Of a stretch of 64,000 nucleotides of DNA, positions 3,256 to 35,209 are shown one piece after another. Below the pieces are notes generated by a model. It was not told the origin of the DNA and made no database searches. It worked only from the letters and a program-made list of their open reading frames with translations. This DNA comes from Megamonas hypermegale (lineage in GTDB: Bacteria; Bacillota; Negativicutes; Selenomonadales; Selenomonadaceae). The position numbers and the translations under genes are program-made. The stretch covers positions 1,736,001 through 1,800,000 of the forward strand of contig NZ_LT906446.1 of the NCBI RefSeq assembly GCF_900187035.1, written 5' to 3'. Each line of letters starts with the position of its first letter. Position 1 is the stretch's first letter.

Positions 3256-3396
3256 TTATAACCCAGCCTCTTTTTTATATCGTACCCATTGCATCATATA
3301 TTCTTTGCCCATAAATTTATCTATTGCCGGCCAGTTTTCGCTGTTTTTCAGCATACTGACCTTAGAAAAAATCTCTGGTGTGTATTTGTCATTCTA
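3256..3396 (-). pseudogene. Duplicated 3' fragment of gene X
   Basis: This repeats the last ~46 codons of the gene at 4438-4844 (NDKYTPEIFSKVSMLK ... WVRYKKEAGL, stop at 3256-3258) with a few substitutions. The homology breaks at about 3397, just after the stop of the neighbouring paralogue. It has no start and is a by-product of the tandem duplication. Confidence 0.8.
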
Positions 3397-23828: not shown

Positions 23829-23856
23829 TATTACCACTCCTTTATTTAAAACAAAA

Positions 23857-23883
23857 AAGCAACCGACAAAATGCCAGTTGCTT
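23857..23883 (-). terminator. Terminator of the allC-allE operon
   Basis: On the minus strand AAGCAAC/GTTGCTT arms are followed by TTTTTTGTTTT, about 50 bp after the allE stop. Confidence 0.7.
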
Positions 23884-23936
23884 TTAATTCACAATCTACA
23901 AATTATCATAAGACTACACTGTCTAGATTTATATTT

Positions 23937-24698
23937 TTATATTTCTACATCACGATTACAATCTTTAGAGTAAATATAGGCAAATGGTTCTCTACCTACA
24001 CCGTAACAACCCTGTGCAACATATGGGCCAAACCACATGAAGTCATTCTTTTTAATCGGCATCCAAGAATTTTCCATAAAATACATACCTTCGCCAGATA
24101 AAATATATGCTCCATGTTCCTGTACATGTGTTTCAATGAATGAATGACACCCACCAGGATTAAAAGATAAGATATGCATATTCATATCAAAAGCCAAATC
24201 TTTTGGTAATAAATCCTTTATGAAAACATTTTCCATACCTTCATATTCTTGATATTCCATATCATTGACATTGCCTACACATACGTATGGTTTTTCTCCA
24301 CCTGCGAGTGGAATGTATCTTTGTTTATAAAAGAGGAATTTTGCTTTTTCTGCACATTTAAATTTTATGCCAGTATCAGATGGAGCAAAAATATAACCAC
24401 CTGCTGTTAAATTATAAACATCTAATCCCACTGAACATTCTACACTGCCTTCAATGCAATATAAAAAGCTTTCTACACCTTCTTCAGAAGCTAAATGTTT
24501 AGTAGAATATCCGCCAGGCTCTGCTGTTATAATGTATTCTACAAAACTTGCACCCATTTTAGGTGAAGCCACGATGCTTACTCGGCAATTTTTTATAGCT
24601 GGAATTACATTATTTACTAATCCATCTTCTGGTAAAACAGCAAAAATACCTGGTTTTACAACAACTCTTGTACTTAAAATATCTTTAGGATAACTCAT
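23937..24698 (-). CDS. allE: (S)-ureidoglycine aminohydrolase
   Basis: AllE hydrolyses (S)-ureidoglycine to (S)-ureidoglycolate and ammonia, keeping the stereochemistry, in allantoin breakdown. The 253-residue protein is a bicupin. The C-terminal cupin shows the Mn-binding set Glu189, His191, His195 (ETHVQEH) and Gln229 (VAQGCYG); the N-terminal cupin (SFLYCIEGSVE, AGGYIFAPSD) lacks such ligands, as in the family. The N-terminus STRVVVKPGIFAVLPEDGLVNN is typical. It overlaps the 3' end of allC by 14 bases, so the pair is translationally coupled. Confidence 0.95.
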   Translation of the reverse strand: MSYPKDILSTRVVVKPGIFAVLPEDGLVNNVIPAIKNCRVSIVASPKMGASFVEYIITAEPGGYSTKHLASEEGVESFLYCIEGSVECSVGLDVYNLTAGGYIFAPSDTGIKFKCAEKAKFLFYKQRYIPLAGGEKPYVCVGNVNDMEYQEYEGMENVFIKDLLPKDLAFDMNMHILSFNPGGCHSFIETHVQEHGAYILSGEGMYFMENSWMPIKKNDFMWFGPYVAQGCYGVGREPFAYIYSKDCNRDVEI

Positions 24699-25920
24699 TT
24701 ATATTCTCCTCATTGTTTATTTTTTTAATTGTATCTAACATAACATGAACAGCTTTTGCTAGGTTTTCTGGTTTACTATATTCTTCTGGGCAATGGCTTC
24801 TACCACCCTTACTAGGCACAAATAACATTGCCGTAGGTAATTTACGTGAAATCGGTAAAGCATCATGACCTGCTCCACTGTTTATATTTATGGAAGAATA
24901 ACCTAATTTTAAAATGCTCTGTCTTAAATAAGACTTCAATGTATCATCCATATCAGATGGTTCAACTTCTAATTTTGTTTGCATTTCATATGTTAAATTG
25001 CGTTCTTGTGCTGTCTTTTCCAAATACGTTAATATATCTTTTTCTAATGCATGTAAATCATCATTATTCATACTGCGTATATCTAAGGAAAATTTCACTT
25101 TTTCAGGTACTGTATTTACAGCATTTGGAGAAACTTCACATGCTCCTACAGTTGCAACAGCTCCAGCATATTTTTTAGCTGCTTTTTCTATATATTCAAT
25201 CACAGTAGCTGTTCCTGTAAGCGCGTCATATCGCATATTCATCGGTGTTGTTCCTGCATGGTCAGCTCTGCCAAATACCTGAATATTGTATCGTTTCATG
25301 CCTACAATACCATTTACGATACCAAGTTCTACGGCTTCTTTTTCTAAAACCGGTCCTTGTTCGATATGAATTTCCATAAAACAACGAATTTGTGACAACT
25401 TCCAAACACTATTTATCAATTGTTCTGGTACTAAATTCCATGATTTCATAGCTTCATAAACGCTTATTCCTTGTTCATCATATTGATGTTTTAATTTTTC
25501 AATATCCCATTCTCCTAAAAAAGCTTTGCTAGAGAAAAATCCAGTACCAAAACGAACGCCTTCTTCATCATTAAAACCGATGACTTCTAGCGTATAAAAC
25601 AATGTTTCATATTTTAAAAGACGAGCTATCTCAATGCCACAAACTACGCCGGCTATTCCATCATATGCTCCACCAGATTTTACTGAATCATAATGTGAAC
25701 CAATTATTATTTTTCGTGAAGAAATGCCCGGTCTAATACCATGAACAGCTCCAGAGGCATCAATAAATACTTCAAGTCCTGCTTCTTCCATTTTCTGTTT
25801 TAAAAAATTCACAGCTAACTTAGCTTCCTTAGTAAAAGGTAACCTCGTTACGCCATTTGTTGTCTCAGAAAATATCTTCAATGTTTCTAAGGTTTCCTTA
25901 ATTCTATCGGTAGTATTCAC
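24685..25920 (-). CDS. allC: Allantoate amidohydrolase (M20 family)
   Basis: AllC hydrolyses allantoate to ureidoglycine, CO2 and ammonia with a two-metal M20 site. The 411-residue protein has GSHYDSV (His76), YDGIAGV (Asp87), NDEEGVRF (Glu119/120), EIHIEQG (His185) and ADHAGTTPM in the lid domain. All are canonical for the hydantoinase/carbamoylase group. GTG 25920 is preferred: the frame is open to an ATG at 25998, but that start would lie inside the divergent promoter region and lacks a ribosome site. It precedes allE and diverges from pucR, whose product probably controls it. Confidence 0.9.
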   Translation of the reverse strand: MNTTDRIKETLETLKIFSETTNGVTRLPFTKEAKLAVNFLKQKMEEAGLEVFIDASGAVHGIRPGISSRKIIIGSHYDSVKSGGAYDGIAGVVCGIEIARLLKYETLFYTLEVIGFNDEEGVRFGTGFFSSKAFLGEWDIEKLKHQYDEQGISVYEAMKSWNLVPEQLINSVWKLSQIRCFMEIHIEQGPVLEKEAVELGIVNGIVGMKRYNIQVFGRADHAGTTPMNMRYDALTGTATVIEYIEKAAKKYAGAVATVGACEVSPNAVNTVPEKVKFSLDIRSMNNDDLHALEKDILTYLEKTAQERNLTYEMQTKLEVEPSDMDDTLKSYLRQSILKLGYSSININSGAGHDALPISRKLPTAMLFVPSKGGRSHCPEEYSKPENLAKAVHVMLDTIKKINNEENINELS

Positions 25921-26010
25921 TTTGACACTTCTTTCATTAATAATATATATTTCTATCAATACAACACGTGATATAATTTTAATTAATCTATTTTTCAAGG
26001 AGATTTTTCT
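25921..26010. promoter_or_regulatory. Divergent control region of allC-allE and pucR
   Basis: This 90-bp AT-rich gap holds TATAAT at 25973-25978 (plus strand, pucR) with no good -35, a TTGACA at 25922-25927, and a CACGTG palindrome near 25965 that could be part of an operator. AAGGAG precedes the pucR ATG. Assignments are tentative. Confidence 0.45.
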
Positions 26011-27594
26011 ATGCCTACTTTAAATTGGTTAATTCAAGAAAGCAGTTTAAATAATTTACGCCTCATTACTGGAGAAAATCACATTTTAAAAGAAATTAAA
26101 AGCGTTAACGTTTTAGATAATCCAGATGTTTTAAAATGGTTCAAACAAAATGAATTGATTTTAACCACTGGTTATTGCTTTAAAGATGACCCTATGCTAC
26201 AGCGCCAAATGATAAAGGATATGAGTGATATTGGCTGTACTGCACTGGCAATAAAAACAAAACGCTTTTTTCGTCAAATTCCTGAAGCTATGATTGATGA
26301 AGCCAAGAAACTTGACTTTCCAATCATTGAACTACCGTATTTCTATTCATTTTCAGAAATATCACAGCTGATATTTCAACAGATTTATAAAGAAAAAAAT
26401 ACTCAAGCAGAACATGAACAACGTTTTTTATCCAATTTTATGCAGCAAATATTAAATCATGAACCAATATCTACTTCTTTACAACAAATTGCTCGCTTTT
26501 TTGTTATACCTGTTTTATTAATAGATATAAATTACACTCCAATAGCCAGCGCTTTTCCTTATAAAAATAATGATATAAATGAAGACGATTTACGTTCCCT
26601 AACAGATTTTCTTTCTTTACAAATAATGAAAAACACTGCTGATAGTTTTTGCAAAATAAATGGTCAAAACTACTCACTACAAACTTTTTCACTTTATAAT
26701 CAAGCGGGTTATTTATGCTTTTTGCATAAACAAAATTCCATTTCATTAATACCTACTTCAAAATTTCTTCAAAATATAATTCAACTTTTAACATTTGCTT
26801 GTGTTCAAAATCAAACACTAAGCACCAGTTACAGTAATAATTCAACCTTTTTCTTACATTTTCTCGTTCACCATAAACAAAATAATGTAGAAGAAATAAA
26901 AAAACTATGCTCTTTTTACGGTTTTGATTATCGCAAAGAATGGATTTGCCTAACTATATCCTTGCAAAACATTCCTGAAAAAGCAAAATCATCATTCTTG
27001 CCAAAACTAAACAAGTTTGTAAAAAATACTTCATTAGAATATTGCAGTATTTTTACATGTTTTAATAACAACTTATTTTGCATTTACTTTTTATTTCCAG
27101 CAAATTATCATCGATTGCAAGCATTACATCAAGTGCAAAACTTCGCATTAAATTTACAAACTAATTTTAATGAAATACCAATTTTCATGGGCATCAGTGC
27201 CTGCCATAAAAAAATCACTAATATCAGTCGAGCTTTTAAAGAAAGTCTCAAATCACTTCAACATCAACAACAGATAAATGATTTTAAGCCAGGTTCATAT
27301 TTGCATCAAATACCATTACATTTATTAAATCAATCTTCTTCTAATTTATTAATTCACAACATATTGCAACCACTTTTAGATTTTGACTGCCAAAATGATA
27401 CGAAACTCGTTCATACTTTAAAAGTTTATTTTTCCTGTAATTACAATGCCAGTCAAGCTGCAAAAATTCTTTATTTACATCGCAATACCATGTTAAATAG
27501 ATTAGAAAAGATAAAAGAAATTCTTCAAACTGATTTCAATAATTCAAATGAAAACATTCTCATCTATTTAAGTTTAGCTGCGCTTGAAGTATAA
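26011..27594 (+). CDS. pucR: PucR-family transcriptional regulator of purine/ureide catabolism
   Basis: PucR proteins activate purine and allantoin degradation genes, often with allantoin-pathway metabolites as inducer. The 527-residue protein has the N-terminal PucR domain (LNNLRLITGENHILKEIKSVNVLD ... ELILTTGYCF, about 10-125), a central GGDEF-like/CdaR-type region, and the C-terminal HTH_30 (FSCNYNASQAAKILYLHRNTMLNRLEKI, about 478-505). Its place between ureide genes supports the role. AAGGAG precedes ATG 26011. The stop codon directly abuts the stop of the convergent gene with no gap and no terminator. Confidence 0.92.
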   Translation: MPTLNWLIQESSLNNLRLITGENHILKEIKSVNVLDNPDVLKWFKQNELILTTGYCFKDDPMLQRQMIKDMSDIGCTALAIKTKRFFRQIPEAMIDEAKKLDFPIIELPYFYSFSEISQLIFQQIYKEKNTQAEHEQRFLSNFMQQILNHEPISTSLQQIARFFVIPVLLIDINYTPIASAFPYKNNDINEDDLRSLTDFLSLQIMKNTADSFCKINGQNYSLQTFSLYNQAGYLCFLHKQNSISLIPTSKFLQNIIQLLTFACVQNQTLSTSYSNNSTFFLHFLVHHKQNNVEEIKKLCSFYGFDYRKEWICLTISLQNIPEKAKSSFLPKLNKFVKNTSLEYCSIFTCFNNNLFCIYFLFPANYHRLQALHQVQNFALNLQTNFNEIPIFMGISACHKKITNISRAFKESLKSLQHQQQINDFKPGSYLHQIPLHLLNQSSSNLLIHNILQPLLDFDCQNDTKLVHTLKVYFSCNYNASQAAKILYLHRNTMLNRLEKIKEILQTDFNNSNENILIYLSLAALEV

Positions 27595-28842
27595 TTAAAC
27601 TTCATTTGCCAGTTCAACTAAAACATCAGTCAAAATATTAGCTCCAGCTGCGATATCCGCAAAATCTGTCCATTCATTTGGACTATGACTTATACCATCT
27701 TTACTTGGTACAAAAATCATCGCTACAGGAGCAAATTCTCCTACTAACATGGAATCATGAAATGCACCGCTTATTGTTTTAATATACGATGTATTTTCTT
27801 TTTCACATGCTGCTTCCAATTTTTTTATGATATTTTCATCACATTTCATCGGATAATCATTATTATATTGAGTGATATTCACTACTACATTTCTTTTCTT
27901 AGCAATAGCTTTTATCTCTTCTTTTAATTTTGCAATCAAATCATTTTTATAATCATAATCGCAGTCTCTAATATCGATAGAGGATATAACTTTTCCCGGT
28001 ATTACATTAACTGCATTTGGTATTACCTGTACTCTGCCAATTGTAGTTGTAGTATATTCACTTTGCGAAGTCTTTCCTAATTTTTCTAAAGCTAAAGCTA
28101 TTTCTGCTGTTGCCATGAATGCATCTTGTCTATCTTCCATTGTTGTTCCGCCTGCATGTGATTGCTTGCCAACAACTTCTACATCAAAAACGCTCGGTGC
28201 ACAAATGGTTTTTACTATGCCAATTGGTTTTCCAGCTTTTTCTAAAACACCATTTTGGTCAATATGCAATTCTACAGCTCCATAAACGGAGCCTTTTTTT
28301 ATTGGTACTTTATCAAAATCTTGCACAGGAAATCCAAGTTTTGTAAGCACTTTATACAAAGTATTGCCATCATCATCAACCAATTCTTTAGCCTGTTTTT
28401 CATCAAGCTTGCCCGCCATAGCACGACTGCCTAAACAGCCAAGTTTAAAACGAGTTGGTTCTTCTGATGTGTATACAACAACAATTATATTTCTTTCATG
28501 TTTTAAATTATTTGCCTGAATGAGTCTTACAGCTTCAAGACCTGCAACAACGCCACTCATACCATCAAACATACCAGCATTTAATACTGTATCAATATGT
28601 GAGCCAGTCCAAATAGGTGGCAATTCTGGTCGTGTTCCTTCAAGTACACCAAAAATATTGCCTATAGCATCTTCATGTACTTTCAGATTTAATTTTCGCA
28701 TTTCAGATTTTACATATTCTCTTGCTTTTACTTCTACATCAGTAAATAAAACTCGTGTTGTGCCAAATTCTGGTGTGGAATTAAATGTATTAATTGTTTC
28801 CAACCATGTTTTTATATTTTCTGCATTTGCTTTAATTTCCAT
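27595..28842 (-). CDS. M20 amidohydrolase paralogue (possible ureidoglycolate amidohydrolase)
   Basis: This 415-residue M20 enzyme belongs to the same group as allC: GSHIDTV (His82), FDGMSGV (Asp93), SEEPTRF (Glu127/128), KQSHAGGTTM and GAFHDSM. The usual HIEQG motif is ELHIDQN (His193, Asp195 for Glu, Asn197 for Gly), a clear departure near the active site. Being the last gene of an operon that already lies beside allB, allC and allE, it best fits the missing step, ureidoglycolate to glyoxylate, NH3 and CO2; an N-carbamoyl amino acid hydrolase is the alternative. ATG 28842 has AGGTGA five bases upstream; 28848 and GTG 28851 are possible starts. Confidence 0.82.
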   Translation of the reverse strand: MEIKANAENIKTWLETINTFNSTPEFGTTRVLFTDVEVKAREYVKSEMRKLNLKVHEDAIGNIFGVLEGTRPELPPIWTGSHIDTVLNAGMFDGMSGVVAGLEAVRLIQANNLKHERNIIVVVYTSEEPTRFKLGCLGSRAMAGKLDEKQAKELVDDDGNTLYKVLTKLGFPVQDFDKVPIKKGSVYGAVELHIDQNGVLEKAGKPIGIVKTICAPSVFDVEVVGKQSHAGGTTMEDRQDAFMATAEIALALEKLGKTSQSEYTTTTIGRVQVIPNAVNVIPGKVISSIDIRDCDYDYKNDLIAKLKEEIKAIAKKRNVVVNITQYNNDYPMKCDENIIKKLEAACEKENTSYIKTISGAFHDSMLVGEFAPVAMIFVPSKDGISHSPNEWTDFADIAAGANILTDVLVELANEV

Positions 28843-28854
28843 TTCCATCACCTA

Positions 28855-29796
28855 TTACATAATATTTTGTGGTTTTCCCATCAAATATTTATTGATATTC
28901 GTAAAAGCAATAACAGCTCTTTTTTCCATAGCTTCTTTTGTCGCAAAACCAATATGTGGTGTCAAAACAACATTTGGTGCACTGAGAAGTGGATTATCCA
29001 TTGCAATTGGTGGTTCATTATCAAAAACATCAACGCCAGCACCAGCAATAGTATTATTTTTAAGTGCATCAGCTAATGCTTTAGCATTGACTACAGGTCC
29101 ACGTGCTGTGTTTATAAGCAATGCTGTTGATTTCATTTTTGTGATATTTTCTGCATTAATTAAGTCTTTTGTCTGCTTAGTGAGTGGTACATGTACAGAT
29201 ACTACATCGCAAGTAGATAATAATTCATCTAAGCCTACAAATTTTATGCCATCAATATCTTTAGGTGTACGGCTATAAGCATATACATCACAACCAAATG
29301 CTTTTGCTACATTTGCTACTTTTAAGCCAATAGCACCAGCTCCAATGATGCCGAACTTTTTGCCGCAAAGTTCAAATTGGCTGAGTCCTGCTTTTGTTTT
29401 ACCTGTGCGAACAGCTTCATCTGCTGCAAAAATATTGCGATATAAATCAACAACCATACCAAAAACCAATTCACAAACAGCTTCATTAGCATAACCAGAA
29501 CAATTGCAAACCATGATATTATTTGCTTTGCAATAATCCATATCTACATGGTCTACACCGGTAAATGCAACAGAAAGCATTTTTAATTTAGTGCATTTTT
29601 CCAATACATCTTTTCTCAAAGGCATATTAGCCAACATTACAATATCTGCGTTTTCGGAACGTTTTATTTTTTCTTCATCATCTTGTGGTGCGCTATTGTA
29701 ATACACAAGTTCAATATCTTCTGGTAAAAAATCTTGTTTTAATTTTTCTACAGCTTTTTCATCAATTCCTAATGGTTCAATAATTGCTATCTTCAC
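28855..29796 (-). CDS. NAD-dependent D-2-hydroxyacid dehydrogenase
   Basis: This 313-residue dehydrogenase of the D-isomer-specific 2-hydroxyacid family has the Rossmann motif GIIGAGAIGLKVA (about 138-150), the catalytic Arg in NTARGPVV, the Glu in DVFDNEPP and the His in LTPHIGFAT. GTG 29796 follows GGAGTGG and starts VKIAIIEPLG, like relatives. It is embedded between allantoinase and the second amidohydrolase, so glyoxylate reduction to glycolate, or ureidoglycolate oxidation, is the likely job. AllD, the known ureidoglycolate dehydrogenase, is an unrelated family. Confidence 0.87.
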   Translation of the reverse strand: MKIAIIEPLGIDEKAVEKLKQDFLPEDIELVYYNSAPQDDEEKIKRSENADIVMLANMPLRKDVLEKCTKLKMLSVAFTGVDHVDMDYCKANNIMVCNCSGYANEAVCELVFGMVVDLYRNIFAADEAVRTGKTKAGLSQFELCGKKFGIIGAGAIGLKVANVAKAFGCDVYAYSRTPKDIDGIKFVGLDELLSTCDVVSVHVPLTKQTKDLINAENITKMKSTALLINTARGPVVNAKALADALKNNTIAGAGVDVFDNEPPIAMDNPLLSAPNVVLTPHIGFATKEAMEKRAVIAFTNINKYLMGKPQNIM

Positions 29797-29811
29797 AAAT
29801 ATCCACTCCAA

Positions 29812-31164
29812 TTACTTTAACTTTTTTATAAATTGTCCCAAACATTTATCACTAAAAGATTTTTTATTATAAACTACATTGCCACGAACAATAGTCATCA
29901 CAGGTAAACCCATTCCTGTTAAACCACAAAAAGCAGAAAATTTATTTTTATATTCTAGCTCATCGGCAACTATCTTCCACGGCTTTTTATCATCAACTAC
30001 TGCAAAATCCGCATCAAAACCTTCTTTTATAGCTCCTTTTCTGCCATAAATACCAAATACTTTAGCAGGATTTTGTGCCATTACTTTTGCAACAAGTACA
30101 GGAGAGCATCCTTTTTTATTCACTGCATAATCCCAAAAAGTTTGCAAACTAGTCTGTACGCCACTTAATCCGCCCCATGCACCGAAAACGCCTTTATCAT
30201 TTGTCGCATCTTTTTCAGAAATTTGACAAGGTGAATGGTCAGAACAAATACAATCTAATGTTCCATCTACAACATAATTCCATAAATCATCGGCTGCTTT
30301 TCTAGAACGCAATGGTGGAGAACATTTAAATATAGCTCCTTTATTTATCAAATCATCACCTGTGAATAATAAATAATGTGCACAGGTTTCCGCTGTTATA
30401 TTAATGCCCTTTTCCTTTGCTTCTTTTATGCACTGAGCAACTTTCGGATGAGATACATGGCAAATATGTGCTTTGCCTTCTGTTTTCTGTAAAATTTCAA
30501 TGATATCTTTTACAGCTTTTAATTCAGCTTCTACTGGACGAGCTTTTAAATAATCTTCAGCAGACACTGTACCTTTTTCAATAGCATTTGTTTCATTTTC
30601 TTTTATGTTTTTGTAATCTTCACAATGAAAACCTGCTAATCCATCAAATTCTTTTAAAAGTTCTATTCTTTGACGAATTTCATCTAAAGACAATTCTGTG
30701 TAGTCTTTACCAGGGTCACACATAAAGCATTTAAAAGCTAAAGCTCCAGCTTCATCCATTTTTTTCAATTCATTTTCATTGCCATGTACTAATCCTCCCC
30801 AAAAACCATAATCTACGAAGGATTTATCTTTTAACAATTTTTCTTTACCTAAAAATATATCAGCTGTTGTAACTGCTGGTTTATTTTGCATCGGCATATC
30901 TATAACGGTTGTAACACCGCCTTTAGCAGCCGCTTTACTTCCATGATAAAAATCTTCTCGCCATGTATATCCAGGGTCATTAAAATGTACGTGTTCATCA
31001 ATCACACCTGGAAGCAAATACTTATTATCAATATCTATTACTTCTTTAGCTAATACATCTTTAGAAGTGATAACCTCTATTTTTCCGTCTTTAATGCCTA
31101 CATTTCCTGTTAATATTTCTTTTTCTGTAACAATTTGAGCATTTCTTATCAATAAATCCAGCAT
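29812..31164 (-). CDS. allB: Allantoinase
   Basis: AllB opens the hydantoin ring of allantoin to allantoate in the first pathway step. The 450-residue metal-dependent amidohydrolase has DEHVHFNDPG (His58, His60), a probable carbamylated Lys145 (ALAFKCFM), the metal His residues in LAGFHCEDY and HICHVSHP, and the Asp in CICSDHSPC. WREDFYHGSKAAAKGGVTT is typical of allantoinase over dihydropyrimidinase. AAGGAGT precedes ATG 31164. It lies 11 bp from the upstream binding-protein gene and is in the transporter operon. Confidence 0.93.
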   Translation of the reverse strand: MLDLLIRNAQIVTEKEILTGNVGIKDGKIEVITSKDVLAKEVIDIDNKYLLPGVIDEHVHFNDPGYTWREDFYHGSKAAAKGGVTTVIDMPMQNKPAVTTADIFLGKEKLLKDKSFVDYGFWGGLVHGNENELKKMDEAGALAFKCFMCDPGKDYTELSLDEIRQRIELLKEFDGLAGFHCEDYKNIKENETNAIEKGTVSAEDYLKARPVEAELKAVKDIIEILQKTEGKAHICHVSHPKVAQCIKEAKEKGINITAETCAHYLLFTGDDLINKGAIFKCSPPLRSRKAADDLWNYVVDGTLDCICSDHSPCQISEKDATNDKGVFGAWGGLSGVQTSLQTFWDYAVNKKGCSPVLVAKVMAQNPAKVFGIYGRKGAIKEGFDADFAVVDDKKPWKIVADELEYKNKFSAFCGLTGMGLPVMTIVRGNVVYNKKSFSDKCLGQFIKKLK

Positions 31165-31175
31165 AATACTACTCC

Positions 31176-32210
31176 TTATTTAACAGTGACAAGTGTTTCA
31201 TCTACAGATTTTAAAATACTTGAATCTGCATATTTCCCAAAATCTGGTTTATTTGAAATATTATTTGTTTCCTTCATAAAGTCTGCGATTTCACCACAAG
31301 AATTTACAAATTTATCATCATATACCATTTGATACTGATTTTGACTCATAATTTTCTTTACTTGTGCTGTATCAAGATTTATTTCTTTTGCTATAATTTC
31401 TGCAGCTTCATCAGGATTTTCATTTATAAAATCTGTTGCTTTTTTCAAAGCTCTAAGCATTGCTTTTACCTCTTCTGGATGTTCTTTCAAGAATGTATCT
31501 GATACTTGCATAGTAGTATAGAAATTCATCCAGTTTACATCACCTTGTTTATCACCTAAATAAGACTTCAAACCACTGAATAATAATTTTCCTCCATTAT
31601 TCTGTGCATTGCTTATCCATGGTTCCCAGCAAGCCATTGCATCAATATCACCTTTTTCCAAAGCTGCAATCGCATCACTTGGGCCTAAAGTAACAAATTG
31701 AATTTTATTTATATCAACATTTAATTCATTGCACATATTGCGAATAGCAATCATAACGCCAGCACCCGCTGGTATACCTACTTTTTTGCCTTCTAAATCT
31801 TTACCATTTACGATATTGGCATTTTTTCTAGCAACTACAGCTTGTGTATTACCAATGTTAGCCATTGGAGCTACGATTTTTACACCTACGCCATTAGCTG
31901 CTAAAGCAATATCTGTATACGGTGATTCAAATGAAACCTGTGCTGAACCACCAGATATCAAAGAAGACATATCGCCACCTGATTGTATAAATTTGTTAGT
32001 AACGTTCAATCCTTCTTCTTTAAAATAGCCTTTTTTATCTGCAATAATCTGTTGCGCTGAAATCTGTGGGTCAATTACACCATAAGCTACAATTTCTGTA
32101 GAAGAAGCATCTTTTGATGCTTCTTTGCTTTTATCTTGTCCGCAACCAGCCATTACGCTTGTCAAAGTCATCGCACAAGCGACAACTGCTATCATTTTCT
32201 TCCAATTCAT
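31176..32210 (-). CDS. ABC transporter substrate-binding lipoprotein, NitT/TauT type (second)
   Basis: This 344-residue lipoprotein has a signal peptide ending SVMAGC, with the lipidated Cys in the first 25 residues. The mature part is a NMT1/SsuA-like fold: AYGVIDPQISAQQIIADKKGYFKEEGL, IQSGGDMSSLISGG, GKKVGIPAGAGVMIAIRNM, GDIDAMACWEPW. It is a clear paralogue of the gene just upstream (shared blocks QQIIAxxKGFF, IAIRNMC, DIDAMAxWEPW). ATG 32210 follows AGAGATGG. Having two binding proteins for one permease suggests two related ligands, probably allantoin or other ureides. Confidence 0.9.
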   Translation of the reverse strand: MNWKKMIAVVACAMTLTSVMAGCGQDKSKEASKDASSTEIVAYGVIDPQISAQQIIADKKGYFKEEGLNVTNKFIQSGGDMSSLISGGSAQVSFESPYTDIALAANGVGVKIVAPMANIGNTQAVVARKNANIVNGKDLEGKKVGIPAGAGVMIAIRNMCNELNVDINKIQFVTLGPSDAIAALEKGDIDAMACWEPWISNAQNNGGKLLFSGLKSYLGDKQGDVNWMNFYTTMQVSDTFLKEHPEEVKAMLRALKKATDFINENPDEAAEIIAKEINLDTAQVKKIMSQNQYQMVYDDKFVNSCGEIADFMKETNNISNKPDFGKYADSSILKSVDETLVTVK

Positions 32211-32240
32211 CACAATCCATCTCTTTTCTTATAAGCAAAA

Positions 32241-33287
32241 TTATAATTTCACTTCATCAGGAACTACCTTTTTCAACATCGTTGGGTCTAAATATTCATC
32301 AGTATTTGGTACTGATTTAATATTGCCCATTTCTAACATGAAGTTTGCCATATTATTAGCGCCATCAACAAATTGTTGGTCATACTGCATAGTGTATTTG
32401 TTTTCTTGCATAATACGTAAACATTCTTTTTCATCTATATTAATGCGTTTAGCTATAATCTTAGCTGCATCTTCTGGATGTTCATTAATATAGTTTGTTG
32501 CTTTATCCAAAGCACGCAATAATTTTTCTACTGTTTCTGGGTTTTTATCATAAAAATCTTGAGTTACCTGTAATGTCATATAAAAATCAATCCAATGAAC
32601 ATCGCCTTCTGCTCCTGGTAAATTAGATTTAGTACCACTAAAGAGCAATGTTCCACCATGGTCAATAGCTTTACCAACCCAAGGTTCCCAAGCTGCCATA
32701 GCATCGATATCGCCTCTATCTAAAGCAGCTAATTGGTCAGAAACACCTAAATTTACAAACTGAATTTTATTTACATCTACACCTGTAGCTTTGCACATAT
32801 TTCTAATAGCAATGAGTACACCTGCACCATTAGTCATACCAATTTTTTTGCCTTCTAAATCTTTCGGGCTATTTATTTCAAGACCTTTACGTGCTACTAC
32901 ACTCTGCGTTCCAGCTGCATTAACAAGTGGAGATACAACTTTTACTTTTACACCATTTGCTGTAACAGAAATGTTGTTATACATAGAACCAAAACAAACC
33001 TTTGCATCACCACTGGCAACTAATGAAGCGTTTTCATCTGGTCCAGTCATCAATTTGTTTTCAATATCTAATCCTTCTTCTTTAAAAAAGCCTTTTTCTT
33101 CTGCGATGATTTGCTGACCTGATACCTGTGGGTCTAATTCTCCATATGCAATCAATTTGCCACTAGTAGCATCATTTTGTGCTTTTTCCTGTGTCTTTTC
33201 GCTACCGCATCCACTTAATACACCTAAGCAAAATACAGCACATGTAGCTACTGCTAAAAATTTCTTCCAAAAATTTTTCTTATTCAT
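32241..33287 (-). CDS. ABC transporter substrate-binding lipoprotein, NitT/TauT type (first)
   Basis: This 348-residue lipoprotein has a perfect lipobox (VLSGC). The mature domain matches the sulfonate/nitrate/taurine binding family: YGELDPQVSGQQIIAEEKGFFKEEGL, GPDENASLVASGDAKVCFG, GMTNGAGVLIAIRNMC, GDIDAMAAWEPWVG. ATG 33287 is six bases after GGGGA. It is 20 bp from the permease and 30 bp from the paralogue, so all are in one operon. The tryptophan-rich pocket region resembles those for small polar substrates. Confidence 0.9.
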   Translation of the reverse strand: MNKKNFWKKFLAVATCAVFCLGVLSGCGSEKTQEKAQNDATSGKLIAYGELDPQVSGQQIIAEEKGFFKEEGLDIENKLMTGPDENASLVASGDAKVCFGSMYNNISVTANGVKVKVVSPLVNAAGTQSVVARKGLEINSPKDLEGKKIGMTNGAGVLIAIRNMCKATGVDVNKIQFVNLGVSDQLAALDRGDIDAMAAWEPWVGKAIDHGGTLLFSGTKSNLPGAEGDVHWIDFYMTLQVTQDFYDKNPETVEKLLRALDKATNYINEHPEDAAKIIAKRINIDEKECLRIMQENKYTMQYDQQFVDGANNMANFMLEMGNIKSVPNTDEYLDPTMLKKVVPDEVKL

Positions 33288-33307
33288 GTACATTCCCCAC
33301 TTTCTTG

Positions 33308-34219
33308 TTAATTTTCTACAGCTTTACTCATACCAACTTTTTTCCAACGGAATAATCTTTTTTCTATCAAAGTTAAAATTCCATAGAAGATTGTATATTC
33401 TAAACCAATTAAGGTTGCTGCTAAAAACATATCAGCCATTTTAAACCAGTTCTTAGCATTTACAATAATATAGCCTAAACCTTCAGAAGCACCCATCATT
33501 TCTGCTACAACTAAAGCGGAAAAAGTAAGTGCTAAGCTTATTTTCATACCAGCAAAAATATGTGGCATAGCTGATTTAAAAATAACTTTTGTAAATACTT
33601 GGAATGGCGTTGCACCTAAGCTACGCGCTGAACGAATTAATACTGGGTCAGTATTTTTTATACCATCAATAACGTAAGTGATAAGCGGTACAAATGTAGC
33701 ATAAGCGATTAAAGCAATTTTTGAAGATTCACCTATACCAAACCAAATCAAAAACATCGGTAAAAATGCAAATACTGGAATAGGTCCAACAAGATTTAAG
33801 ATAGGAGTGAATATATTATCAAAATCTCTTTTCGTTGCAATCAATATTCCCAACACAACTGCAATCACTACACCGATTACAAAACCTATTATCATTCGAT
33901 AAAAACTCATGCCTATATGTCCAATCAATGTTCCATCAATAATATAGTCATAAGCCGTTTCAATAACCATTGCAGGAGAAGGTAAAAATACTGGATTAAA
34001 CCATTCATTTAAGCCATTTAAATAACTGATTAACTGCCATAAGCCGAAGAAGAATAATAAAGAAAAAATCTTATAATACGTATTCATCCTAGCTCGATGA
34101 GCTTCCACTATTTTTCGTGGAATAATTTCTTCTTCAAAATCTGGTTCCACTACATACTGTGACTGTACTAAAAAATCATGTACAGATATCTCTTTATTTT
34201 CTAATAGCTGACCATTCAT
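33308..34219 (-). CDS. ABC transporter permease, NitT/TauT type
   Basis: This 303-residue inner-membrane protein has six helices and the BPD_transp_1 coupling motif SARSLGATPFQVFTKVIFKSAMPHI (EAA loop, about 205-230). The sequence LPSPAMVIETAYDYI and FLIWFGIGESSKIALI are typical of SsuC/TauC relatives. ATG 34219 follows AAGGAGGA. An N-terminal cytoplasmic stretch of about 50 residues is longer than in SsuC. Partner ATPase overlaps its 5' side by translational coupling (13 bp gap). Confidence 0.93.
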   Translation of the reverse strand: MNGQLLENKEISVHDFLVQSQYVVEPDFEEEIIPRKIVEAHRARMNTYYKIFSLLFFFGLWQLISYLNGLNEWFNPVFLPSPAMVIETAYDYIIDGTLIGHIGMSFYRMIIGFVIGVVIAVVLGILIATKRDFDNIFTPILNLVGPIPVFAFLPMFLIWFGIGESSKIALIAYATFVPLITYVIDGIKNTDPVLIRSARSLGATPFQVFTKVIFKSAMPHIFAGMKISLALTFSALVVAEMMGASEGLGYIIVNAKNWFKMADMFLAATLIGLEYTIFYGILTLIEKRLFRWKKVGMSKAVEN

Positions 34220-34232
34220 AATACTTCCTCCT

Positions 34233-34997
34233 TTACTCAACAATTACATCCATATTAGAGCCATCTGTTAAACCCTTAGAGAATAAATCAACGTATTCAT
34301 TAAATTCTTTTGAACGAATATCTCTAGGTCTTACTAAATTAATTGGTGTATCCATAGCAATGTGTCCTTGTTTTAACAAAATAACTCTATCTGCTAAATA
34401 AACAGCTTCTGGAACACTATGTGTAATAAAGAAAATTGTCTTCTTACTTATTTGCCAAATACGAATTAATTCTTTACGCATTGTATCCCTTGTCATTGCA
34501 TCAAGAGCGCCAAGAGGTTCATCCATTAATAACACTTGCGGATTATTAACAAGTGCTCTAGCAATTCCTACACGCTGTGCCATACCACCTGATAATTCTG
34601 CTGGATAAGCATTTTCATATCCTTGCAATCCAATCATATCTATATATTGTTTGGCAATTTTTTCTACTTCAGATTTTTTATGTTTCTTTAGTTTTAAACC
34701 GAATTCAATATTTTCTTTTACTGTATACCATGGAAATAAAGCATGCTGTTGGAAAACAACTCCACGTTGTGCTGATGGTCCATTTACATCTACACCATCA
34801 ACAATAATTCTGCCTTTATCTGGTTTTAAATATCCTGCTAATAAATTCAGCATAGTTGATTTACCGCAACCACTTTTTCCCAAAACACAAATAAATTCTC
34901 CTGTTTTTATTTTTAAATTTATATCTTCAAGTATATATTTAGGTTTACCATTAACCTCATCAAAAGATTTATGAATATTTATAAATTCTACACTCAT
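34233..34997 (-). CDS. ABC transporter ATPase, NitT/TauT type
   Basis: This 254-residue ATPase powers the importer. Walker A is [10 protein letters not shown]-loop [11 protein letters not shown], signature [15 protein letters not shown], Walker B VLLMDEP, D-loop LGALD, and switch His in ITHSVPEA. This arrangement is that of the SsuB/TauB/NrtD family. ATG 34997 follows GGGAAAG and matches the family N-terminus ([14 protein letters not shown]). It is the first gene of the operon; a terminator hairpin lies in its leader (35021-35056). Confidence 0.94.
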
Positions 34998-35020
34998 ATA
35001 CTTTCCCTTCCCCAAAACAA

Positions 35021-35056
35021 AAAGGCGCAAAACTCTTTAATAAGTTTTGCGCCTTT
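35021..35056 (-). promoter_or_regulatory. Intrinsic terminator (possible attenuator) in the transport operon leader
   Basis: A perfect 14-bp stem (AAAGGCGCAAAACT/AGTTTTGCGCCTTT, 8-base loop) is followed on the minus strand by TTTTTGTTTT, about 15 bases before the ribosome site of the ABC ATPase gene. Because purL already has its own terminator at 35175, this second one lies inside the new transcription unit. The leader upstream holds TTTCATATGAAA (35062-35073), a perfect palindrome. Confidence 0.7.
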
Positions 35057-35174
35057 GCAAATTTCATATGAAAATGATGTAATTATTATATGATATAACA
35101 AATCTTTCTACAATGTGCATGTAGTTGATATATATTATTTTTCAATATGATATTTGCATAATTCATGATAAAAA

Positions 35175-35209
35175 AAGACTATGACAAGATAAAATCTCAT
35201 CATAGTCTT
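35175..35209 (-). terminator. Terminator of purL
   Basis: AAGACTATGA/TCATAGTCTT stem with additional inner AAGA/TCT pairing, followed by TTTTTTTAT on the minus strand, 18 bp after the purL stop. Confidence 0.8.

Follow-up and report, generated by a model that had tools for sequence, protein, structure and literature searches.

How could Megamonas hypermegale draw nitrogen from ureides, and which carrier would bring them into the cell? The question is raised by a 64,000-nucleotide stretch of its single-contig 2.23 Mb genome (positions 1736001-1800000 of NZ_LT906446.1, hereafter the window), in which a sequence-only reading had placed ureide genes together with a hydroxyacid dehydrogenase gene, pucR, and an ABC importer with two binding proteins. 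Ten intact open reading frames (ORFs) spanning 23937-35030 were found, all of them where that reading had put them, and both the families and the linkage were confirmed; the ATPase gene has its ATG at 34997, inside a longer ORF that starts with TTG at 35030. We hold with good confidence that the island as a whole is best explained as a ureide-scavenging nitrogen module, running from ABC uptake through stepwise hydrolysis to glyoxylate. The minus-strand genes follow the order ATPase, permease, SBP2, SBP1, allB, dehydrogenase, and M20b, while pucR on the plus strand converges with M20b; M20a-allE, a second unit on the minus strand, is oriented divergently from pucR.

34233..34997, minus strand: ABC ATPase of NitT/TauT type (family scan; ATG at 34997, ORF open to TTG at 35030)
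33308..34243, minus strand: ABC permease, BPD family (family scan)
32241..33293, minus strand: SBP2, NMT1/SsuA-like lipoprotein binding protein (family scan, tree, lipobox LSGC)
31176..32213, minus strand: SBP1, lipoprotein binding protein paralogous to SBP2 (family scan, separate clade)
29812..31164, minus strand: AllB, allantoinase of divergent clade II (TIGR03178, 3hm7, metal-site motifs, tree)
28855..29811, minus strand: D-2-hydroxyacid dehydrogenase with NADP(H)-type loop YSRT, putative glyoxylate reductase (family scan, loop)
27595..28851, minus strand: M20b, ureidoglycolate amidohydrolase (UAH) type (4pxe match, tree, signatures)
26011..27594, plus strand: PucR-family regulator (PF07905 N-domain and PF13556 HTH_30 over cut-off)
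24685..25998, minus strand: M20a, putative allantoate amidohydrolase (likely GTG start near 25920; NF006771, tree, signatures)
23937..24698, minus strand: AllE, (S)-ureidoglycine aminohydrolase (TIGR03214; 14-base overlap with M20a)

The degradative enzymes were assigned by family models, solved relatives, and trees. AllE scored 331.7 bits against TIGR03214, over its equivalog cut-off of 200, and its closest solved relative is 1rc6 (YlbA, 279.5 bits). AllB likewise passed the equivalog cut-off of TIGR03178 (441.5 versus 357.85 bits), has the allantoinase 3hm7 as its closest solved structure, and carries the metal-site motifs HVHF, FKCF, GFHCE, HICHVS, and SDHSP. The family scan placed both M20 enzymes in the hydantoinase/carbamoylase family. 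The best PDB match of M20b was Arabidopsis UAH 4pxe with 305.8 bits, 99 bits above E. coli AllC (206.9 bits), and the protein falls in one clade with UAH (support 100/96, the plant row being a long branch). It shows the UAH-type signatures EEPTRF and [FY]HDS, versus EEG.RF and GHD[AS] in AllC and M20a. M20b can thus be assigned, as a predicted activity, to ureidoglycolate amidohydrolase, and by its grouping with the plant enzyme it would supply the glyoxylate-forming step, which completes the ureide-to-glyoxylate route that the sequence-only reading had considered possible. For M20a we infer allantoate amidohydrolase, because this step would otherwise be missing, because the enzyme has the AllC-like signatures EEG.RF and GHDA, and because it accompanies AllE in most clusters; it also scored 419 bits against NF006771 (cut-off 399).

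In plants, the pathway from allantoin through allantoate, ureidoglycine, and ureidoglycolate to glyoxylate is established. The island appears to encode the same series. Allantoin and/or a close relative would enter through the NitT/TauT-type importer, which would be driven by ATP and has two lipoprotein receptors, and AllB would open the ring of allantoin to give allantoate. M20a would then remove one terminal ureido group as NH3 and CO2 to yield ureidoglycine, from which AllE would release a further NH3 and form (S)-ureidoglycolate. The UAH reaction yields 2 NH3, CO2, and glyoxylate (PMC3793230), and M20b would perform it on (S)-ureidoglycolate. At the level of predicted activities, a route that leads by hydrolysis alone from allantoin to glyoxylate and 4 NH3 is therefore supported for AllB, M20a, AllE, and M20b. 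The dehydrogenase would reduce the glyoxylate to glycolate with NADPH, PucR would serve as ureide sensor, and attenuation in the leader of the importer operon, possibly through an ANTAR protein, would tie importer expression to the nitrogen state.

The branch that consumes oxalurate in E. coli was missing. Oxamate and carbamate kinase genes had been noted as absent from the window, and this held for the whole genome: AllG had no match in a genome-wide search, nor did AllD-family Ldh_2, and for carbamate kinase the genome holds only partial matches of 37 and 33 bits versus a cut-off of 358. The absence of this oxalurate/carbamate branch fits the nitrogen-salvage interpretation given earlier. 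The sole NCS1 permease gene of the genome is interrupted, being split by a stop into two ORFs (L146, 1486-2700). Together with the linkage of the importer to ureide genes in phylogenetically distant genomes, this upheld the proposal of a dedicated importer. Elsewhere in the genome lies a xanthine-dehydrogenase-like three-gene set (L148, 8466-11997), which was set aside as a part of the ureide system since no ureide genes surround it.

By domain content the importer is of NitT/TauT type, with an NMT1-type receptor, a BPD permease, and an ABC ATPase in one operon. Its ATPase is 49-75% identical to those of the same subfamily in other genomes, and a scan of a genome collection found receptor relatives of 42-71% identity in Selenomonas, Clostridium polyendosporum, C. 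chromiireducens, an uncultured Clostridium, Orenia, Sporolactobacillus, Lachnospiraceae, Butyrivibrio, Rummeliibacillus, Domibacillus, Paenibacillus, and others. Ureide genes adjoin most of these relatives in shuffled gene order; the importer stands beside them in Selenomonadaceae, another Negativicutes family, Clostridium, Orenia, Lachnospiraceae, Sporolactobacillus, and Paenibacillus. Since the same gene set recurs in different orders and in several families, the linkage is not due to chance, and the importer forms a distinct NitT/TauT subfamily linked to ureide genes across distant genomes. A search for the cluster in other Negativicutes, as had been suggested, did recover importer/ureide gene sets: of 380 genomes, 25 had AllE over the cut-off, six had a full-strength receptor (>600 bits), and six had a UAH-clade enzyme (>800 bits). 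The six receptor genomes were exactly the six UAH-clade genomes, and all were within the 25 with AllE. The nominal chances of these coincidences, 2.5e-13 and 4e-8, are overstated because the genomes are related, the six belonging to four genera in two families and thus not being independent. Negativicutes AllE loci examined without the importer held other carriers, namely an NCS1 permease, accompanied by AllD in L039 and by UAH in L053, and a major facilitator (MFS) carrier in L042. No description of an allantoin ABC importer of this type was found in a literature search of partial coverage.

Several clusters vary in content. In those of Sporolactobacillus and Paenibacillus, AllB and an AllC-like enzyme are joined by an aminotransferase that replaces AllE and UAH; it is of class V in Sporolactobacillus and looks PucG-like. 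Two Lachnospiraceae clusters (L077, 8806-10194, and L083, 11692-13035) contain, where M20a is missing, an M20 amidohydrolase of another subfamily (assigned through TIGR01891 for the L077 enzyme) as a possible non-orthologous replacement. Other Selenomonadaceae loci (L061, L062, L063) carry reduced or broken copies of the island, with genes missing and allE broken in L063, pointing to island loss. The UAH locus at L053 6575-9494 is without the hydroxyacid dehydrogenase and, by inspection, has a gene similar to those of FAD oxidoreductases together with genes that resemble those of electron-transfer flavoprotein subunits.

The two binding proteins form separate clades in the tree and differ in 14 columns that are fixed in each, several of them around residues 85-107. 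The SBP2 clade is present in all intact Negativicutes importers of the subfamily and also in Clostridium and Sporolactobacillus, with Selenomonas and Sporolactobacillus having SBP2 only. Three Clostridium loci (L066, L067, L068) have two AllB paralogues, SBP2 adjoining that of clade I and SBP1 that of clade II. The separate clades, the fixed columns, and the pairing with AllB suggest two related ligands, and the two proteins probably bind different ones. Predicted structures of both receptors (pLDDT 89.5 and 90.7) matched known structures in general fold only, with no ligand named.

Which substrates and reactions these proteins handle was weighed against several alternatives. Some observations speak against the ureide module as a whole or against single assignments in it. 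AllB lies below the stricter NF004839 cut-off (428.6 versus 631 bits). The E. coli-type AllC model TIGR03176 (cut-off 597.75) gave 262.7 bits for M20a and 280.8 for M20b; the M20a clade is separate from E. coli AllC, and the best PDB match of M20a is an N-carbamoyl-L-amino-acid hydrolase. The importer occurs without nearby ureide genes in ANGP1, Alkalicoccobacillus, and Geomicrobium, and beside allB alone in Domibacillus and Rummeliibacillus; a weaker receptor match was seen in two genomes without an AllE match (G262 and G265); and Sporolactobacillus has an NCS1 permease in addition to the importer, whose substrate in that case may therefore be another ureide. It is possible, if somewhat doubtful, that the main substrate of the importer is a ureide other than (S)-allantoin (allantoate, (R)-allantoin, or some further 5-substituted hydantoin) and that the two binding proteins divide such ligands between them, for instance the allantoin enantiomers, both of which give achiral allantoate. 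The receptor clades predate the split between Clostridium and Negativicutes or reflect an old transfer, their fixed differences lie in likely pocket loops, each Clostridium receptor gene is next to its own AllB clade, and Sporolactobacillus pairs SBP2 with a divergent AllB while its canonical AllB is kept near the NCS1 permease. The pairing is loose, however, since SBP2 occurs with an AllB of clade II in Selenomonas, and a single AllB stands with both receptors in the window; the enantiomers as the two ligands are an attractive guess.

A transporter for a sulfonate, taurine, a thiamine precursor, or nitrate that merely neighbors the ureide genes would be a very improbable explanation. The closest solved folds are indeed TauA, SsuA, and thiamin-binding proteins, and SBP1, with 165.1 bits, is just above the SsuA-subfamily cut-off of 163.5, SBP2 being below it with 150.4. 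However, the taurine equivalog gave 83.6 and 62.9 bits versus a cut-off of 304, identity to the best solved receptors is only about 14-23%, and the ureide linkage survives rearrangement and extends across families. A sulfonate or nitrate role was set aside after these receptor scores and structure comparisons. For the hydroxyacid dehydrogenase, an AllD-like oxidation of (S)-ureidoglycolate to oxalurate could be imagined, as almost every complete cluster contains the enzyme along with AllE and UAH and (S)-ureidoglycolate has, by our own stereochemical reasoning, the spatial arrangement of a D-2-hydroxyacid. We consider this improbable because the genome has neither AllG nor carbamate kinase and oxalurate would have no user; UAH would also compete for ureidoglycolate. 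NAD-specific dehydrogenases typically have an acidic residue in the cofactor loop. The YSRT loop, common to most orthologs in ureide clusters, is without it, and a similar loop (ARTPK) occurs in 2cuk, a glycerate dehydrogenase/glyoxylate reductase. Such an NADP(H)-type loop suits reduction, and NADPH-dependent conversion of glyoxylate to glycolate, including its direction, is what we infer for this enzyme.

How the importer operon is switched on was approached through its leader and the surrounding signals, which are listed here.

35021..35061, minus strand: leader attenuator (hexaloop hairpin 35061-35046 overlapping an intrinsic terminator, 35056-35021)
35175..35209, minus strand: terminator-like hairpin after the upstream purL-like gene
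25922..25951, plus strand: promoter-like site of pucR, TTGACA-18-TATATT, 11/12 (consensus match only; total matches equal those in shuffles)
23855..23885, minus strand: terminator-like hairpin between allE and a dicarboxylate symporter gene

The hairpin following allE indicates that the island ends at that gene, and the one after the purL-like gene makes a separate start likely for the ABC operon. Distinct from the latter, and absent from the sequence-only reading, the leader terminator lies 24 bases before the ATPase ATG, and its 5′ arm is overlapped by the hexaloop hairpin TTTGC[AAAGGC]GCAAA. Relatives from two Negativicutes families, from Clostridium, and from one Lachnospiraceae genome have the same arrangement 5′ of the importer or receptor genes (loci L054, L056, L060, L064-L068, and L077), with compensated stem changes among relatives (TCATGC/GCATGA, TTTAC/GTAAA, ATAC/GTAT). 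In an alignment of 11 copies, 98.2% of cells were paired for the hairpin and 99.3% for the terminator, and the covariation was reached by none of 500 shuffles. The two helices share one strand, which couples their covariation, the first strand being needed for the hairpin only; since all three strands covary, both mutually exclusive helices hold. Loop positions A1 and G4 were kept in every aligned copy, as the scan that found the copies required. No Rfam element or riboswitch matched in the leader.

ANTAR proteins bind such loops, and their classical target consists of two hexaloops (PMC3369931), while structural work reduced the minimal motif to a single hexaloop and called for more study of such lone loops (PMC8934654). 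The leader does have an A1/G4 hexaloop overlapping a terminator, and the genome encodes one ANTAR protein, a response regulator at 1044956-1045111 beside a HisKA_2 kinase. A second hexaloop (P1) was not found 5-12 bases upstream in the leader. It is possible, though rather less than an even prospect, that the leader hairpin is a plain terminator with an incidental hexaloop. Besides the missing second loop, a relaxed hexaloop scan gave 78 matches versus 40 in a reversed control, and co-occurrence with ANTAR is loose: of 21 genomes, 10 have the leader element and 11 do not, and ANTAR was present in 9 and 5 of these, respectively (p = 0.06). Against an incidental loop speak the covariation of both exclusive helices, the constant A1 and G4, and about one hexaloop copy per leader where 0.1-0.2 are expected. 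A single-hexaloop ANTAR-type attenuator is thus a likely but unproven candidate for the leader.

Similar hexaloop and terminator elements were observed at L053 5227, L055 5532, L063 8879, L092 5818 and 9513, L098 6465 and 7905, and L109 4557. No second hexaloop was seen at any of them. Genes for UAH, M20 amidase, and NitT/TauT permeases are found close to them, the elements in L053 and L055 preceding the UAH gene, and loci of Pectinatus and Propionispira have such hexaloop terminators in the neighborhood of further genes of nitrogen type. These placements suggest that the nitrogen regulon is wider. Matches to the exact hexaloop motif elsewhere in the genome had one mismatch and were set aside; those inspected (L151, L154) are inside or adjacent to genes resembling uvrA and thiC. 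A hexaloop match in the window at 3256 looks like an ordinary terminator.

Compared with known systems, the island shares with the E. coli all regulon (AllW/YbbW, AllB, AllC, AllE, AllD, OXTCase, carbamate kinase) the AllB and AllE homologs over cut-offs and the allantoate amidohydrolase step, but it has an ABC importer, UAH, and a PucR-type regulator and is without an NCS1 permease and the oxalurate/carbamate branch. The four hydrolytic steps are those of the plant ureide pathway (allantoinase, AAH, UGlyAH, and UAH of the 4pxe clade), here in a bacterial cluster with its own importer and hydroxyacid dehydrogenase. A PucR-family regulator accompanies allantoin genes also in Bacillus subtilis, whose puc genes include the NCS1 permease PucI; in contrast, M. 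hypermegale has no intact NCS1 gene, and AllE and UAH stand instead of the aminotransferase step. The importers SsuABC, TauABC, and ThiXYZ have the same domain make-up and receptor fold, whereas the importer described here forms its own subfamily with two receptors and ureide linkage and exceeds no sulfonate or taurine cut-off by a clear margin. With the ANTAR targets in the eut, nasF, and amiE leaders (PMC3369931, PMC8934654) the leader shares the A1/G4 hexaloop over a terminator, in a genome with an ANTAR response regulator; unlike them, it has a single hexaloop directly after the likely transcription start.

The enzymes are thus mostly of known kinds, while the ureide-linked NitT/TauT subfamily and the single-hexaloop leader look new. 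Our most far-reaching proposal joins the two, and as a joint claim it is tentative and on balance unlikely to hold in full: the importer operon would be turned on by single-hexaloop ANTAR antitermination, as a member of an attenuator family that immediately follows the promoters of operons for the scavenging of ureides and other nitrogen sources in Negativicutes and Clostridium, and the importer would found a ureide-specific NitT/TauT subfamily whose receptors split the allantoin enantiomers or allantoin and allantoate. With the ureide module as such, anaerobes would gain an ATP-driven path to ureide nitrogen apart from NCS1 carriers and the oxalurate pathway, and a substrate would be given to a widespread receptor subfamily, which general models group with sulfonate-type receptors only. 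The leader also offers a direct test of ANTAR action on single hexaloops, which were flagged for further work (PMC8934654).

In a search for a DNA operator shared by the pucR and ABC promoters, the matches did not clearly exceed those in shuffles. At 35119-35111 on the minus strand, TGCACATTG lies upstream of the ABC promoter region, and similar TGTGCA/TGCACA motifs were observed upstream in L054, L056, L060, L065, L066, and L067; TGCACATTG is possibly an operator, perhaps that of PucR.

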